DNA of 24,165 nt from a virus: the IMG/VR virus record IMGVR_UViG_3300010367_000089, positions 1-24,165 of that record; one strand, 5' to 3'. A model generated the notes under the pieces. It did no database searches. It was not told where the DNA came from and worked only from the letters and a program-made list of their open reading frames with translations. Positions 9,035 through 17,232 of the stretch are shown one piece after another. The stretch's first letter is position 1. Every line of letters starts with the position of its first letter. The position numbers were made by a program, and so were the translations under genes.

Positions 9035-10975
9035 TCAGAACAGCCCGGACGGGCCGTCAAGGCGCCCGTCCCAGTTGGTGATCTCGCCTGCGGCGAGAGC
9101 CATCTCCAGATCGATCACGATCTGGTTCTCCCGGTCACGAGCGCCCATGAACTCGTTGCTCTCGACATGCCAGCCGCTGCCGCCGTCGAGCATCAGCTCG
9201 CGGCAGCGGATCTCCACGAACCACGCCGCCATGACCGTGTCGGTCAGGTTCTTCGTCTCCGGCGCCCAGCCGCAGAGCTGCTCGATGAAGTTCCGCACCG
9301 GCTCCGACTGCGTCTGAGACGGCAGGCGGATCAGGTTCCGCCCCTCGCGCCATCCCTCGAAGAGGGTGGCCATGCTCGCCACCCCGTAGTCCGGGTCCCA
9401 CTTGTTGGAGTTCGTGTGGTGCCCGGAGATCAGAACGCCGCGGGCGTTCATGTGATCCCGGATCAACCGGTCCTGGACCAGGGACGCCTGATAGGCGTTC
9501 TTCTCGATCCGCCATTCAGAGACGCCGTAGCGGTCGGTGATACGGAACATCTCGGAGCGCAGCTCGTGCGGCAGCATGCCGCGCTTGTTCACGACCTCCA
9601 GCACCCAGCGCACGCCGGTCTGGCGGTCAAGGCCCCAGACCTGGATCGCCGTGCACCCGGCGGCGGCAGGGTCCACCCCGGCAATGACGGTCAAGCCCTC
9701 CATGCCGTACTTGCGGTGCCCGGGCTGGCCGGGCATCAGCCGGCCCGGATACCGGGCCCGGTCCACGCACCCCTGCACATCCTCCTGGGCGAACGTGGAG
9801 TCATCGGCCACCTGGTCCTGCATGTAGACCATCGACCAGTTCCGCGCCCGCATCTTGCGGCGCTTCCTGGCCAGGGCCTCGCCGTGCCACATCGGCCACA
9901 TGCCGTTCCGGGGCCAGCCCTCGGCCTCGGCGACCTTGCGGCCCTTGATGCTCACCGGGGGCCGGTTGGTGACCGGCCACAAGGTTTTCCAGTCCTTCGG
10001 GTCATCCGCATACTCCAGGACGGCCGGCTGCGTCAGGTACGTCCACGGGCTCTCGCCGTCCACGTAGTAGGACGGCTTGAGGATCTCCGAATAGAGATCC
10101 ACGGTCTCCAGGCGGGTCCCGATCAGCAGCATGCGACCACCCGCGTCCGCGACGCGGGTGCCCACTTGGTTCTGCACCCAGTTGATCTGGCTGTCGTACT
10201 GCTGGTGGTTCGTGTGGTCCACGCAGTCATCCATGATGGCCAGGTCGGTACGGGTGCCGTAGATGTGGCCGCCGATCCCGACGGCCTGAACGGTGTAGGC
10301 GGACTCCCCGGAGTCCGCACCGTTGACGCGGATCTTCTCCGCGGCCCAGATGGCGTTCTCGGCGAAGCCGCCCACCGGACCGAAGGTCCGCTGAAGATCC
10401 GCATAGCGCTCGTTCTCCGACAGGCGGTCCTTGATCGCCATCAGGAACCGCTTGGCCATGTCCTGGGTCTTGGACACGAGCAGGATGCGGATGTTCGGGT
10501 CCTGCACGATGCGCCACGTCACGTAGTTGACCGTCAGTGTGGTCGACTTCCCGTGCTCGGGCGGTGTGTTGCACAGCAGTTGGTCCACGTCCCCGCGGAC
10601 GTACCGCTGGGACGGATGCAGGTCGCGGGGCTCCCTGCCCTCCAGCAGGTCGTACCACTGGAGGTGGTGCGTGAACATCTTCGTGTCCAGGTACCGCTCG
10701 CAGAACTCCGGGAAGTCCGGGACCTCCGGGCGCTCCACCACGGAGTCCTCGTCCCGCGCCATCAGCGCGGCCTCGGCCATGACCCGGAAGTTCGCGTCGG
10801 TCTTCTTGTAGTACGCGAACGTGGACTCCCCGCGCTGAGCGGCCTCACAGGCCCGCTTGACGGTCAGGCCGGACCTGATGCCGGCCAGGATGATGTCCTT
10901 CGCATGCTTGCTGGACCGCTCGCTCCTGCGGCGGTCCCGGGAGGGCGTGGCTCCTGCCACGACTCTGACGGCCAC
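9035..10975 (-). CDS. terL: Terminase large subunit with N-terminal TerS-like HTH, 646 aa
   Basis: ATP-driven motor and nuclease that packages DNA through the portal. Visible motifs are the Walker A PPEHGKSTT at 138-146, Walker B DLAIMDD at 244-250, the coupling segment LLIGTRL at 283-289, and the RNase H-like nuclease start IAGVDPAAAG with Asp435, followed by an acidic residue in EWRIEKN (Glu491) and DPDYGVASM near 527-535. Residues 30-70 (IRSGLTVKRACEAAQRGESTFAYY, DANF) resemble the helix-turn-helix that small terminase subunits use to recognise DNA. The start is GTG 10975, with AGGGGG upstream. No separate small subunit is in the window. It is the first gene of the minus-strand late operon and faces the structured region. 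Confidence 0.93.
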   Translation of the reverse strand: MAVRVVAGATPSRDRRRSERSSKHAKDIILAGIRSGLTVKRACEAAQRGESTFAYYKKTDANFRVMAEAALMARDEDSVVERPEVPDFPEFCERYLDTKMFTHHLQWYDLLEGREPRDLHPSQRYVRGDVDQLLCNTPPEHGKSTTLTVNYVTWRIVQDPNIRILLVSKTQDMAKRFLMAIKDRLSENERYADLQRTFGPVGGFAENAIWAAEKIRVNGADSGESAYTVQAVGIGGHIYGTRTDLAIMDDCVDHTNHQQYDSQINWVQNQVGTRVADAGGRMLLIGTRLETVDLYSEILKPSYYVDGESPWTYLTQPAVLEYADDPKDWKTLWPVTNRPPVSIKGRKVAEAEGWPRNGMWPMWHGEALARKRRKMRARNWSMVYMQDQVADDSTFAQEDVQGCVDRARYPGRLMPGQPGHRKYGMEGLTVIAGVDPAAAGCTAIQVWGLDRQTGVRWVLEVVNKRGMLPHELRSEMFRITDRYGVSEWRIEKNAYQASLVQDRLIRDHMNARGVLISGHHTNSNKWDPDYGVASMATLFEGWREGRNLIRLPSQTQSEPVRNFIEQLCGWAPETKNLTDTVMAAWFVEIRCRELMLDGGSGWHVESNEFMGARDRENQIVIDLEMALAAGEITNWDGRLDGPSGLF

Positions 10976-10987
10976 TGCACCCCCTGG

Positions 10988-11011
10988 CTGCTAGCACTTC
11001 GGTGCTAGCAG
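10988..11011. promoter_or_regulatory. Perfect 10-bp hairpin just upstream of the terminase start
   Basis: CTGCTAGCAC and GTGCTAGCAG flank a TTCG loop; on the plus strand this is a C(UUCG)G tetraloop. It ends 13 bases before the terminase GTG. On the minus strand it would lie in the terminase leader, next to the ribosome site, and could control translation or mark RNA processing. As DNA it is a 20-bp dyad that could be an operator or part of a packaging site. Confidence 0.6.
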
Positions 11012-11040
11012 TGTACGGGCCCGAGGGTGAACCCCGGGTC

Positions 11041-11110
11041 TTTGTAAGAACCGACCAAGAATCGGGCGCGATTCTTGTAGGAACCTACAAACTTTGGAAA
11101 TTCTCAAAGT
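11041..11110. promoter_or_regulatory. AT-richer control block with three abutting dyads
   Basis: Three inverted repeats lie side by side. CAAGAATCG/CGATTCTTG at 11056-11077 has a 4-base centre. TTGTAGG/CCTACAA at 11075-11090 has a 2-base centre and overlaps the first. ACTTTG/CAAAGT at 11091-11110 has an 8-base centre. TTGTAAGAACC at 11042-11052 also repeats as TTGTAGGAACC at 11075-11085 with one change. This cluster, between a minus-strand late operon and plus-strand transcription, looks like operator sites for a phage regulator or origin-type repeats. No protein that binds it can be named. Confidence 0.6.
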
Positions 11111-11136
11111 CGCTGTCCGAAATGCCAGATTTGGGC

Positions 11137-11164
11137 TTGACGCGTTTGAGTACCCTCATAGAGG
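11137..11164 (+). promoter_or_regulatory. Candidate sigma70-type promoter reading into the structured region
   Basis: TTGACG at 11137-11142, 16 bases, then TAGAGG at 11159-11164. The -35 is close to consensus; the -10 fits the actinobacterial TANNNT pattern only partly. It lies just after the dyad cluster and immediately before the first hairpins of the putative non-coding RNA. Transcription would start near 11171. Confidence 0.45.
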
Positions 11165-12240
11165 GCGCGCCAGCGCCCCCCGGTATTGAGCGGCCATCAA
11201 GGCCGCTCGCAGGGACAGCGCGTCCCCGTCAGAGGGACGCGCAGGGCGCCCCACCTGGGGCGCGAGAAGCCGGGGGGGCTCGCCCCCCCTGGCAACCCCC
11301 CGTCGGGAATCGGGGGGTGCTGAAAAGCACAATCCCCCCCGATTCCCTCAAGAGAGACGGCAGAGCTCTCTCGGATCCGTCGGCCTTCAGGCCGACACTG
11401 TGACGTCTGGGCCACACCCTGAGGGGTGGACCAGTCCAGTCCAGGGCCCCAGGGTTTAACACCCTGGGGTCAAGAGAGCGCCTTCAGGCGCTCACATGAG
11501 CACGAGAGACCATGATCCCGCTCATATGAGCGGGATGCAGAGGGCCCTGGACTGGAGCGTGAGCGACAGTCCACCCCCTCTGACCTGCACCTATCGGTGC
11601 AGAGGGGTGGCCAGTCGCATGGTGTGGTCCACCAGGACCACACACGGTGTGCCTGTCGGCACCGCTGAGCCTGCCCATCAGGGCAGGCTCTCTGTGCGTG
11701 TGGATCATGCGATGCCACACCTGCGGTGTGGTCATCGCGCCTGCGTGCCTTCGGCACACCGAGCGGCCTGAGGGCCGCTCACTGGGGGGCTGATCGCTTT
11801 GCGATCAAGCTCCCGGCCATCAGGGGTCCAGCCGGAGGGCTGGCCCCCCTTCTTGCCGATCGCAGTACCGCCAGCCCCCTTGGAGGGGGCTACGGCGGAA
11901 GGGGGTGGATGTGTCGGCCTGATGGCCGACCATGCGAGCCGCCTTCGGCGGCTCTCTGTGCCTGTCACGCAAAACGATCATGGCTGTGCCGGCACAGCGC
12001 CGGTCGGGGGAAAAGGATCTTCGACCCCCGCAGCGGACGGGCCCTTGCCCGCCGTACGGGCGCACGAGGGCCCCTCAGGGGCCCGTACAACCCCCGTGAA
12101 CCCCGGTGGGTCCAACTCCGCGCACGCCATGCGTGCGGGTCGCACGGCGGCACACAGCCGCTTCAGCGGCCCGGATGATCGTTTGGCCCGCAGATGGGCC
12201 ATGGATGTCCGTCCCGGACGCATCATGCACGTGCATGTGT
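11165..12240 (+). ncRNA. Putative large structured non-coding RNA, block A (back-to-back hairpins)
   Basis: About 1.08 kb with no credible gene and more than 20 hairpins, most perfect. Examples: 11188-11208 (8 bp), 11218-11242 (9 bp), 11246-11263 (7 bp), 11305-11347 (13 bp, capped by an inner stem with a GAAA loop), 11379-11396 (7 bp, TTCA loop), 11447-11469 (9 bp), 11476-11493 (7 bp, TTCA loop), 11515-11536 (9 bp), 11622-11643 (9 bp), 11667-11690 (10 bp, ATCA loop), 11709-11738 (13 bp, one bulge), 11761-11780 (8 bp), 11785-11814 (two-tier), 11868-11898 (8+5 bp), 11913-11930 (7 bp), 11936-11954 (8 bp), 12121-12137 (7 bp) and 12157-12170 (TTCA loop). Bases 11436-11449 pair with 11542-11555 over 14 bp, closing a multibranch domain. 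Loop types favour plus-strand RNA. Exact ends are unknown. Alternatives are a replication origin or packaging region. Confidence 0.6.
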
Positions 12241-12359
12241 GCGCACGCTCACAACGGAACCGCTGGTCACTGGCGGTGAGTTCACCGGAGAGCCATGATC
12301 ATCTTCACCTTTGCCAACGCTTTACCCGTGGGGCTATTGCTCCGCGGATGGGTCAATGA

Positions 12360-12745
12360 CAAAGTCGTGTCATCGCCACCGGGGAACCCCGCAAGGGGGG
12401 AACCGGCCAGAGCGGTGAGACCTTGAGATGACACTGCGCCTCACGGCGTACGAGGGTGCCGGAGCCTGAGATCCGGACAGCTGACAGGTAGCTAAGTGGC
12501 TTGTGGGTAGCGCACCGACGGTGCGCGAGAGGTGAGCCAGCGGACCTAACCGATCCGTGACTGAAGCCGAACCGCCTAGGCAGCCGCGCAGAGAGCCGGA
12601 GTACCCGGCAGTGCGCAGAGCAACACCAACGACGTGCAGGGCCCCCGTCCTCCGACCCCCGCAAGGGGGAGACGGACCGACCCGGGGCCCTGCCTCGTCA
12701 AGTGCGCACGGTCGGTACCGTGCGTGCCTGTCGAGAGCCACCGAT
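12360..12745 (+). ncRNA. Putative structured RNA, block B, with GNRA-capped stems
   Basis: A second folded block that may be a separate RNA or the 3' domain of block A. GTGTCATC at 12367-12374 pairs with GATGACAC at 12428-12435 and encloses a very regular hairpin at 12379-12406: stem CCGG/CCGG, a symmetric internal loop GGAA/GGAA, stem CCCC/GGGG, and a GCAA tetraloop. GCGCACC/GGTGCGC with loop GAC lies at 12510-12526. At 12636-12693 a 10-bp stem (GCAGGGCCCC and complement) encloses a second GCAA-capped stem at 12656-12669. CGCACGGT/ACCGTGCG lies at 12705-12724. No reading frame of credible composition crosses it. It ends just before the leader of the 12767 gene, so it could also be that gene's long 5' leader. 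The intervening 12241-12359 is less structured and somewhat AT-richer. Confidence 0.55.
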
Positions 12746-12750
12746 CGACT

Positions 12751-12757
12751 GGAGAGG
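12751..12757 (+). promoter_or_regulatory. Start-associated leader word GGAGAGG (first of six)
   Basis: The ribosome site of the 12767 gene. The identical 7-mer occurs before each operon-leading gene in this arm: 12751, 13288, 13839, 14593, 15752 and 17283, at 5 to 10 bases from the ATG. It is longer than a plain Shine-Dalgarno and is not shared by the later leaders at 19279, 20832 and 22604. Confidence 0.65.
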
Positions 12758-12766
12758 GTTGATCAC

Positions 12767-13189
12767 ATGGACCTGAACGAGCACACGGAGAACGGGATCA
12801 CCTACCGCGTAGGTGACCGGGTGGTCAGCGCCCCCGGGCGCAGCGACCACGAGGACGAGCCGAACCTGACGGGCCGACTCGTGAGCATCACGGCCGACAG
12901 CGACGGCGAGGCCACCTATTGGATCACTTGGTCCGGGGCCGGCAAAGCCGATGCACAGGGACCGGGCGACTTCACGATCCTTCCCGCCGACGGCGGTGTC
13001 ACATCCGAGCAGATCAGCGAGGCGCGCAACTGGATCGCGGACGCGTACCCGCAGAACCCGCTGGACATGAGCGACACGCACCCGGTGTACAGCGAGAGCG
13101 CGGAGAGCGTGCAGCGCTTCGTGGACCGCCGGTATCCCGGCGGCTGGCCCGCGTTCGTCGCGGAGTGCTGCACCTACGTGCAGCTCTAG
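12767..13189 (+). CDS. Hypothetical protein, 140 aa, SH3-barrel-like N-terminus
   Basis: First plus-strand gene after the structured region. ATG 12767 is chosen because GGAGAGG stands nine bases upstream and the preceding open frame lies in the hairpin block. The first 75 residues (NGITYRVGDRVVSAPGRSDH, then GRLVSI and TYWITWSG) have the short-strand pattern of a small SH3-like barrel, as in proteins that read V-x-V-G-D-R-V followed by a strand. The second half (EQISEARNWIADAYPQNPLD and VQRFVDRRYPGGWPAFVAEC) is helical and resembles small proteins of Streptomyces phages. Function unknown. It is followed at once by regulatory hairpin module 1, so it is probably its own transcription or processing unit. 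Confidence 0.85.
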   Translation: MDLNEHTENGITYRVGDRVVSAPGRSDHEDEPNLTGRLVSITADSDGEATYWITWSGAGKADAQGPGDFTILPADGGVTSEQISEARNWIADAYPQNPLDMSDTHPVYSESAESVQRFVDRRYPGGWPAFVAECCTYVQL

Positions 13190-13203
13190 CCCGTAGAGCG
13201 GTC

Positions 13204-13294
13204 GGGCGTACGGCTTCACCTCCGTACGCCCCATCAGTCCTACGGACTGGCCCCCGACGGCATCGGGGGCGCATCACATGATCCAGAGGAGAGG
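13204..13294 (+). promoter_or_regulatory. Leader module 1: three hairpins plus GGAGAGG
   Basis: Hairpin A is GGGCGTACGG/CCGTACGCCC (13204-13231, 8-base loop). The TAC hairpin is CAGTCC/GGACTG with triloop TAC (13235-13249). Hairpin C is GCCCCCGA/TCGGGGGC with loop CGGCA (13250-13270). GGAGAGG follows at 13288-13294, six bases before the ATG. The same order recurs in modules 2 and 3 with different stems. Confidence 0.7.
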
Positions 13295-13300
13295 CTGATC

Positions 13301-13495
13301 ATGAGCAGTGAATGGCGCGAGGAGCGCTGTGAGGACTGCGGCGAGACATTCGAGCGCCGCTGGGTCACCAAAACCCACAAGATCGGTGCGCCGATACCCG
13401 CCGGGTACCGCACCGAACGGCGCGGCAACTCGTGGAGCACGATCGCCGCTCCCACAAGCGACGCGTCCCTTTGTCTGTGCGATACGGCGGCGTGA
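13301..13495 (+). CDS. Small zinc-ribbon-like protein, 64 aa
   Basis: ATG 13301 follows GGAGAGG by six bases. The protein begins MSSEWREERCEDCGETFERR; Cys10 and Cys13 form a CxxC knuckle and a second pair (CLC) stands near residues 58-60, so a single zinc ribbon is possible. The middle (HKIGAPIPAGYRTERRGNSW) is basic. It overlaps the next gene by four bases (GTGA) and the two form a coupled pair of Cys-pair proteins. Function unknown. Confidence 0.75.
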   Translation: MSSEWREERCEDCGETFERRWVTKTHKIGAPIPAGYRTERRGNSWSTIAAPTSDASLCLCDTAA

Positions 13496-15763: not shown

Positions 15764-16027
15764 ATGAACACCACTGAGATCACCCTGGACGAGGGGTGGG
15801 AAGTCGTCCCCTCGGACGACATGGCCGAGACCCCCGTGATTATCCGACATGACGGCAGAGCCGTAGCCTCGATCCGCTTCGTGCCCCAGGCCCTCGCCCC
15901 CAGCACGGGCGAGGGTTCGTACGTCACGAGTCGCTTCGAGTGGCAGCTGCTGGACTGGCCGATCGTCGGCCGTGAGGCCGGGTACGAGGACGCGCTGCGT
16001 GCGGCCGTGTGGGCCGTGCAGTCATGA
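15764..16027 (+). CDS. Hypothetical protein, 87 aa, ahead of the DUF5753/DUF397 pair
   Basis: ATG 15764 follows GGAGAGG by five bases. It begins MNTTEITLDEGWEVVPSDDM, with a strand-rich middle (VIIRHDGRAVASIRFVP) and a helical C-terminus (GYEDALRAAVWAVQS). Its stop overlaps the next start as ATGA, so it forms one operon with the DUF5753 and DUF397 genes that ends at the 16904 terminator. The composition suggests a small alpha-beta fold. Function unknown; context hints at a role with that pair. Confidence 0.82.
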   Translation: MNTTEITLDEGWEVVPSDDMAETPVIIRHDGRAVASIRFVPQALAPSTGEGSYVTSRFEWQLLDWPIVGREAGYEDALRAAVWAVQS

Positions 16028-16737
16028 CCGACAACAACATGCGCACGAAGCGTGCGCTGGCCGCCTTAGCGGCAGCCGATCAGCGGGGCGTCGGCCAGGT
16101 GGCCGGCGGCACGGGCGCGGAGGCCATAGACCGCCTTGCCGACCTGGACGCGTGCACCCTGGACTACCGCACATGGAGTCCCCGGGTGGTACCGGGACTC
16201 CTCCAGACGCCCGCATACACCGCGGGCGCCATCAAGAGCCACACCCCGGCCATAGAGGCGGCGGACCTCGGACTCCTGGTCACACACCGTCGCAGGCGCT
16301 CGGAGGCGTTCTTCGCCCGCCGGGCGGCCCTAACGGGCCGGCTGGCATGGTTCCTCGTGGGTGAGGAGGCGATCAGGTACCCCCTGATGAACGCACACAG
16401 CCACGCCGATCAGCTGCGGCAGCTGCTGGAGGTCATCGAAGCGCCGAACAACATCATCCTCCAGGTAGTGCCCGTGGATCTGCCGGTCCCGGTCACGGCG
16501 GAGCCTTTCAGCCTCTTCGGCCTGGACCCCGGGCCGACCGTGGGCCACCTGGAGACAGTGATCGGCGGCTTCTATACGATCATTGACGGAGACATCACCT
16601 GGCTCAAGGGCATGTTCTCCAACATGGTCGGGCGCGCCCTCAGCACGCGCGACTCCCGGGAGTACATCAGAGAGGAGCTGTACGCATGCACAGGCTCAGG
16701 CCGGACCTCGGAGACTTCCGAGGGGCAATCTTCGTGA
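16024..16737 (+). CDS. DUF5753-domain protein without the usual HTH, 237 aa
   Basis: The DUF5753 signature is clear: DYRTWSPRVVPGLLQTPAYT at residues 47-66, an Arg-rich helix HRRRRSEAFFARR at 88-100, WFLVGEEAIRYPL at 109-121, QLRQLLEVIE at 130-139, and NNIILQVVPVDLPVPV at 142-157. In Streptomyces this domain usually sits C-terminal to a helix-turn-helix, in WhiJ-like regulators paired with a DUF397 protein. Here only about 40 residues (MTDNNMRTKRALAALAAADQ onward) precede the domain, too few for the usual HTH. ATG 16024 overlaps the previous stop (ATGA); the longer frame start at 16009 is not credible. It overlaps the DUF397 gene by 52 bases. It may sequester the DUF397 partner or act on host homologues. 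Confidence 0.88.
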   Translation: MTDNNMRTKRALAALAAADQRGVGQVAGGTGAEAIDRLADLDACTLDYRTWSPRVVPGLLQTPAYTAGAIKSHTPAIEAADLGLLVTHRRRRSEAFFARRAALTGRLAWFLVGEEAIRYPLMNAHSHADQLRQLLEVIEAPNNIILQVVPVDLPVPVTAEPFSLFGLDPGPTVGHLETVIGGFYTIIDGDITWLKGMFSNMVGRALSTRDSREYIREELYACTGSGRTSETSEGQSS

Positions 16738-16892
16738 CCAGCAGCTACACCAACCCGGAGAACTGCGTGGCGGTCGCCGCCGCCGACAGCGTCGGCGTGA
16801 AGGACAGCAAGGTCCCACACGGGACCGTCCTGGCGTTCGAGCGGCCCCAGTGGGCCGACTTCGTGGAGTTCGCCAAGACCGCCGTGGTCTGA
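16686..16892 (+). CDS. DUF397-family protein, 68 aa
   Basis: The family pattern is seen in TSSYTNPENCVAVAAADSVG and VKDSKVPHGTVLAFERPQWA, then DFVEFAKTAVV. DUF397 proteins are small partners of HTH-DUF5753 regulators in Streptomyces and have been described in toxin-antitoxin-like pairs. I choose ATG 16686, with GAGGAG upstream, because it restores the usual residues before the SSY motif. GTG 16734, which overlaps the DUF5753 stop as GTGA, would give a 52-residue form. It is the last gene of the operon and is followed directly by a strong terminator. Confidence 0.85.
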   Translation: MHRLRPDLGDFRGAIFVTSSYTNPENCVAVAAADSVGVKDSKVPHGTVLAFERPQWADFVEFAKTAVV

Positions 16893-16978: not shown

Positions 16979-17047
16979 GCCTCCATAGCTCAACTGCGCA
17001 GAGCGCCGCCCTAAGCGGAGAATGCCGGTTCGAATCCGGCTGGAGGC
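16979..17047 (+). tRNA. tRNA-like gene with a shortened anticodon arm
   Basis: The acceptor stem GCCTCCA/TGGAGGC (16979-16985, 17041-17047) is a perfect 7 bp. The D stem GCTC/GAGC (16988-16991, 17001-17004) is perfect, as is the T arm GCCGG-TTCGAAT-CCGGC (17024-17040), with the invariant TTCGAAT. TA stands at positions 8-9. The anticodon arm is abnormal: it folds best as CCGC/GCGG with a 5-base loop CCTAA, about four bases short of standard, and the D loop (AACTGCGCA) lacks a clear GG. If CT is read as 32-33 the anticodon would be AAG, but then the stem does not pair. No CCA is encoded; the discriminator would be G. It could be a decayed tRNA, an unusual phage tRNA or a tRNA mimic. Confidence 0.6.
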
Positions 17048-17232
17048 GCGGGACCGTGAGAGACGACGCCAGGACCGCCGGATACCCCACGGGGCCCGGA
17101 TTGCTCCTGGCTCGGGAACAGAGCCCCGGTGAGGCACGCTTCAACCGCATCTCAGGAGAAGCCTGTAGCAGGGTCCGGCCAGCCCGAACCTGATCAAATG
17201 GCCAAACCCGCCGCCCCTGGCATGGGCGGCAC
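17048..17232 (+). other. Non-coding stretch after the tRNA-like gene, folded
   Basis: Holds no credible gene. At 17068-17111 GCCAGGA/TCCTGGC encloses CCGG/CCGG and CCCC/GGGG in three tiers. GGCTC/GAGCC lies at 17109-17125, competing at its first bases. The rest is unremarkable. It may be a 3' trailer of the tRNA-like transcript, a small RNA, or the leader of the 17298 operon. Confidence 0.45.

Follow-up and report, generated by a model that had tools for sequence, protein, structure and literature searches.

A hairpin-dense gap between terL and the early genes of a Streptomyces podophage is a probable packaging locus with a predicted foldable direct terminal repeat

The complete records of five Beephvirinae, a group of Streptomyces phages, have identical ends of 264 bp (WRightOn), 275 bp (Immanuel3), 253 bp (FlowerPower), 263 bp (Stella), and 254 bp (Dennebes). 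In each genome this direct terminal repeat (DTR) sits in the gap between the terminase gene terL and the early genes. T7 concatemers contain a terminal repeat together with a palindrome next to the cut, which has been proposed to help duplicate the repeat through hairpin ends. To our knowledge, repeat duplication during concatemer cutting is still incompletely explained for phages with short terminal repeats. Structured phage sequences are also known from other settings. Phage N4 has three early promoters that are read by a virion RNA polymerase, and extrusion of their hairpins needs C-G closure of the stem together with G and A at the ends of the loop (PMC4496689). The GOLLD and ROOL RNAs are phage-borne, large, highly structured, and often encoded near tRNA genes (PMC12286853).

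The window analyzed here is a stretch of 24,165 nucleotides (IMG/VR record IMGVR_UViG_3300010367_000089) from a Streptomyces podophage that is kin to the Beephvirinae; Abafar, another member of that group, is a podovirus (PMC11536984). Its minus-strand left arm codes for the terminase large subunit TerL (9035–10975, minus strand; PHROG 38, E 5e-70), which forms the left border of the gap, an endolysin, a portal protein, and a 1664-aa protein. The sole match of this last protein is an unknown PHROG, with no polymerase family recovered from what is an incomplete genome. The plus-strand right arm carries small early genes, a tRNA gene, a serine integrase, and a WhiB-like protein. TerL is approximately 50% identical to the TerL of Beephvirinae such as WRightOn and Immanuel3, and closer relatives (60–87% identity) number in the dozens among metagenomic contigs, with a few more in Streptomyces genomes. 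A DNA-level similarity search of annotated phages gave no match to either the hairpin region or the whole window. Farther along the window, at 16009–16892, a DUF5753 protein is followed by a short protein that we take to be DUF397-like; both are carried by the phage and kept in relatives. Such pairs are regulators common on Streptomyces chromosomes.

Between the start of terL (10975) and the first early gene (12767), the interval 10976–12775 contains 24 perfect local hairpins (stem of at least 7 bp, loop of 3–8). The original prediction had described this gap as hyper-structured and free of any credible gene, and both descriptions hold. Positions 11156–12745 include 22 perfect hairpins, compared with a mean of 1.1 and a maximum of 4 in 100 dinucleotide shuffles. 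Folding z-scores in 200-nt segments reach -7.0 and -9.1 on the plus strand and about -5 to -7 on the minus strand, against -1.7 ± 1.4 in the rest of the window. A coding reading was rejected, since the ORFs of 90–186 aa found in the gap match relatives through DNA conservation only, with stops and frame breaks. Tandem bidirectional terminators were likewise rejected, as the region holds just one terminator-like site, which is the chance level. Immediately upstream of terL, a perfect hairpin at 10988–11011 (CTGCTAGCAC-TTCG-GTGCTAGCAG) is strongly conserved and common to the closest relatives; it is perhaps a leader element of the late operon.

About 30 relatives, which are mostly metagenomic and include isolate genomes, have a dense hairpin zone at this position. 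Most of these loci have 7–29 perfect hairpins per gap, versus about one in shuffles, located mainly 300–1500 bp from the start of terL. Because hairpins are also present in the genomes of Streptomyces isolates (L083 and L085, the latter in Streptomyces sp. MP131-18), they are not an artefact of metagenome assembly. Across relatives, orthologous hairpins retain their position and pairing while their sequence is altered. In the window, a left cluster of six perfect hairpins (11188–11396) lies between terL and the predicted terminal repeat described below, and a right array of 11 (11585–12137) lies between that repeat and the early promoter region.

Between the left cluster and the right array lies a long-range helix, P1, whose left arm (TCCAGTCCAGGGCCC, 11435–11449, plus strand) pairs with its right arm (GGGCCCTGGACTGGA, 11542–11556, plus strand). 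The helix proposed in the original prediction (14 bp, 11436–11449 with 11542–11555) is thus borne out and, at 15 bp, is one pair longer. Three inner hairpins are found on the plus strand. P2 (11447–11473) holds the motif TTTAACACCCTGGGGTCAA (11455–11473), which is kept as far as marine relatives and Beephvirinae, whereas P3 (11476–11493) and P4 (11515–11536) vary in sequence with constant pairing in close relatives. At the place of P1, an exact inverted repeat of at least 11 bp (11–20 bp) is present in 26 of 27 loci, where shuffles lead one to expect 0.1. The arms have 23 different sequences over these loci, with pairing always preserved. Covariation across homologues, which had been put forward as a test of the structure, is therefore abundant. 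It is exclusively Watson-Crick and strand-symmetric, which supports base pairing and not RNA specifically; covarying helices of this type fit paired DNA equally well as structured RNA.

The P1 domain resembles the ends of Beephvirinae DTRs. The motif TTTAAnAnCCnGGGGTCAA within the P1 helix of the window is common to Beephvirinae isolates, in which TTTAACAACCCCCGGGT or a close variant lies 22 nt inside the left DTR end. Written in the orientation of the window and with a slash at the boundary, the left end of the Beephvirinae repeat reads GGGGACT/CACTCC...TTTAACAACCCCCGGGT, and the right end reads GAGATGGGAC/, GAGCGGGGGAC/, and similar. Both ends are GGGGAC/T or near, such that cuts follow a G-rich GAC, although the precise cutting position may be displaced by a base. 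The motif TTTAA...CCnGGGGTCA forms the conserved inner part of the P1 domain in the window, and TTTAA...GGGTCA is found at the equivalent position in about 30 relatives with TerL identities as low as 47% (for example, CACAGACACACAGATATTTAAAAACCTGGGGTCAAAC in phages at that distance). Within the clade of the window, GGAGAC or GGACC stands to the left of the motif and GCGAGGnGGAC or GCGTGAGCGAC to its right, and the bracketing G-rich GAC/ sites are 98–154 bp apart.

Because the DTR-end motif of the Beephvirinae and the GAC sites recur around P1, we predict that positions 11433–11567 (about 135 bp) are the direct terminal repeat of this phage, bounded by G(G)nGAC/ cut-like sites. The prediction draws on homology with the five Beephvirinae DTR ends and on the predicted fold. 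The putative right cut site, GCGTGAGCGAC/AGTCC (11557–11567, plus strand), is comparable to GAGATGGGAC/ in Beephvirinae; this match is short, at about 6–10 bases, and its placement was guided by the GAC motif. Overall, the correspondence between the boundary sequences and known DTR ends involves short motifs and is of moderate strength. Contig ends do not cluster at the predicted cuts; one contig (L015) ends at ...GATGGGGAC, possibly by chance. Given that the arms of P1 lie just inside both predicted cuts, the whole repeat could extrude as a branched cruciform, and modeling predicts that either strand folds into a single branched structure of this kind. We infer from these sequence comparisons that the physical ends of the phage are at 11433–11567.

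Along with its location between terL and the early arm, the predicted repeat shares with Beephvirinae DTRs the TTTAA...CCnGGGT motif inside the left end and a G-rich GAC/ at both ends, and the terminus in the window is predicted to belong with those of direct-terminal-repeat phages as a packaging terminus. However, the Beephvirinae repeats (253–275 bp) are twice as long as the approximately 135 bp predicted here, and the three genomes scanned have neither the P1 inverted repeat nor an array, with just 3–5 hairpins in the gap. The arrangement also differs from that of T7, where a single palindrome lies beside the repeat; in the window, it is the repeat that would fold, flanked on each side by an array. 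At the right ends of WRightOn and Immanuel3 (L088 and L090), the Beephvirinae gap holds several GCAGGTCAG direct repeats as well as motifs such as CTTTGAGAACTCAACAGTGTG (in the direction of the early genes), which in our view resemble leader sequences of actinobacterial rRNA operons.

The original prediction had favored a giant ornate RNA. If the region encoded a large structured non-coding RNA, whether GOLLD/ROOL-like or a packaging RNA like phi29 pRNA, the conserved pairing would be RNA pairing, and the extreme stability of the region, the abundant compensatory changes together with conserved unpaired stretches in P1–P4, and the asymmetric conserved internal loop of a second element (11867–11904, see below) would all be accounted for. 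Folding energy, however, lacks the strand asymmetry that such an RNA should impose: neither the hairpin array (n = 232 windows, p=0.10) nor the P1 domain/predicted repeat (n = 24, p=0.63) shows a strand difference, whereas in a control with RNase P RNA sequences drawn from actinobacterial genomes the sense strand was more stable by 4.4 kcal/mol per 150 nt (n = 42, p=1.6e-5). Wobble pairs inside stems gave a similar picture. When flanking Watson-Crick pairs were demanded, G-U and A-C were equally frequent (14 versus 14), a looser count gave no significant excess (34 versus 25), and two further counts had a similar outcome, with no preference for G-U. Admitting wobble pairs near stem ends did produce a G-U excess on the plus strand (63 versus 36), which favors RNA; this excess was traced to the stem-end wobbles and disappeared once flanking Watson-Crick pairs were demanded. 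Given this count, the wobble test is not perfectly clean.

Loop sequences also bear on this question. The GAAA, GCAA, and TTCA loops noted in the original prediction are readable in the sequence, but RNA-like, orientation-specific loops are not a general property of the region. Among 456 family hairpins, cUNCGg tetraloops occur three times per strand and GNRA loops once on the plus strand versus nine times on the minus strand, so that both are rare and neither is enriched. The stable DNA loops C(GNA)G and C(GNNA)G, in contrast, are skewed to the minus strand (64 versus 15), and they have the stem closure and loop ends needed for hairpin extrusion in N4 (PMC4496689). Searching Rfam returned nothing at gathering or E-value thresholds, the hits in the region all lying far under the cut-offs; GOLLD, ROOL, and other known RNA families were ruled out on this lack of a covariance-model match. 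The locus further departs from GOLLD and ROOL in having no strand-specific structure and a single tRNA gene 4 kb away. A sigma-70 scan found no promoter reading into the region, including the candidate proposed at 11137–11164. The conserved block that resembles a promoter is downstream of the array, and in relatives the core motif falls at a DNA terminus. Taken together, the energy, wobble, and loop tests speak for DNA, without proving that RNA is absent, and we regard a structured RNA as quite improbable. The original observation is partly confirmed, and its interpretation is partly supported: the giant-RNA reading finds no support, and the fallback suggestion, a packaging region acting as DNA, is supported by the homology in position and motif between the P1 domain and the terminal-repeat end of Beephvirinae.

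Two further explanations treat the palindromes as DNA with a different significance. The region could be an origin or single-strand initiation zone, in which palindromes open as single-stranded hairpins, replication proteins are loaded there, and the DTR is close by coincidence. Its site between divergent arms fits this idea, as does the minus-strand skew of the C(GNA)G and C(GNNA)G loops, which are known to favor extrusion of DNA hairpins in N4 (PMC4496689). The region has in common with the N4 early promoters its short perfect DNA hairpins, closed by C-G and carrying loops with G and A at their ends on one strand. Yet N4 has three promoters, while here about 20 hairpins of unrelated sequence are present and no virion RNA polymerase was recognized in the part of the genome that the window covers. 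Neither iterons nor a replication gene was recognized adjoining the region, the hairpin sequences differ totally between relatives save for two short elements, and the best-conserved element is associated with the terminus, all of which makes an origin unlikely. Alternatively, the hairpins could be an inert by-product of template-switch replication errors that make and perfect palindromes where the gap is non-coding and its structure is not under selection. Quasi-palindrome correction would yield perfect Watson-Crick stems with few intermediates, but such a process would hardly keep hairpin positions and numbers across distant relatives despite sequence change, nor retain P1 in all but one of the 27 loci, and Beephvirinae gaps of similar size are without these hairpins. 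We consider this last explanation very improbable.

The right array includes the second conserved element, ACCGnCAGCCCC-loop-GGGGC(GTnn)GnCGGAAGGGG (11867–11904, plus strand). It was found at 13 loci, one of them in the window, with a constant orientation and at roughly 220–340 bp to the right of the predicted repeat (about 300 bp in the window), and it has a conserved asymmetric internal loop. A covariance model of the element gained one extra member (L024). Farther right, a conserved block on the plus strand at 12309–12392 (CTTTGCCAAnnCTTTACC, with promoter-like sequence just downstream) is, judging from its conservation, a probable early promoter; the array would therefore lie upstream of the probable early transcript. 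The right array may have a role in packaging, end protection, or replication.

The first early gene (12767–13189, plus strand) encodes a 140-aa protein of unknown function that is conserved in relatives. Of 28 ORFs checked, it alone ends in TAG. Reading through this codon (12767–13492) would lengthen the gene by 101 codons, and the added part matches a relative (L037) at 48% identity, with a stop inside the match. The tRNA-like gene reported downstream in the original prediction is confirmed as a single tRNA gene (16979–17049) with a CUA (amber) anticodon, called tRNA-Pyl by ARAGORN and scoring 52 bits with the Rfam tRNA model; given this tRNA, read-through of the first early gene is conceivable. 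Predicted tRNA-like genes of other identity occur in several relatives (for example, Ile in L037 and Pro in L094 and L103) and may occupy the position of the tRNA gene of the window.

In sum, the results support a DNA structure that is conserved, paired, and located at the presumed packaging terminus. We think it likely that the region functions as DNA and constitutes the genome-end (packaging) locus of a Streptomyces podophage, with 11433–11567 as the direct terminal repeat. On this model, similar G(G)nGAC/ sites to the left and right of 11433–11567 would be where terminase cuts the concatemer. The P1 arms, a perfect 15-bp inverted repeat, would lie just inside the cuts, and the repeat could be extruded as a cruciform bearing P2–P4. 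In virion DNA, the right-hand hairpin array, together with the second conserved element, would be located at the end that bears the early genes. More speculatively, extrusion or fold-back of the repeat may position terminase, and fold-back on P1 after cutting may prime copying or duplication of the repeat during concatemer cutting. These phages could tentatively represent a class in which direct terminal repeats are conserved cruciforms, with branching somewhat reminiscent of the terminal repeats of parvoviruses, and in which fold-back and hairpin arrays let terminase duplicate the repeat, although this generalization is the more doubtful part of the proposal. In the literature searched, we found no description of a cruciform direct terminal repeat with hairpin arrays.

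The locus also carries a caution, in that strong covariation and high stability do not by themselves mean RNA, and strand asymmetry should be checked first. Finally, about 25 sequence-diverse repeats in which the long perfect helix is retained while its sequence has fully turned over form a natural series, and these natural compensatory variants could be used to test whether DNA folding at the terminus matters.
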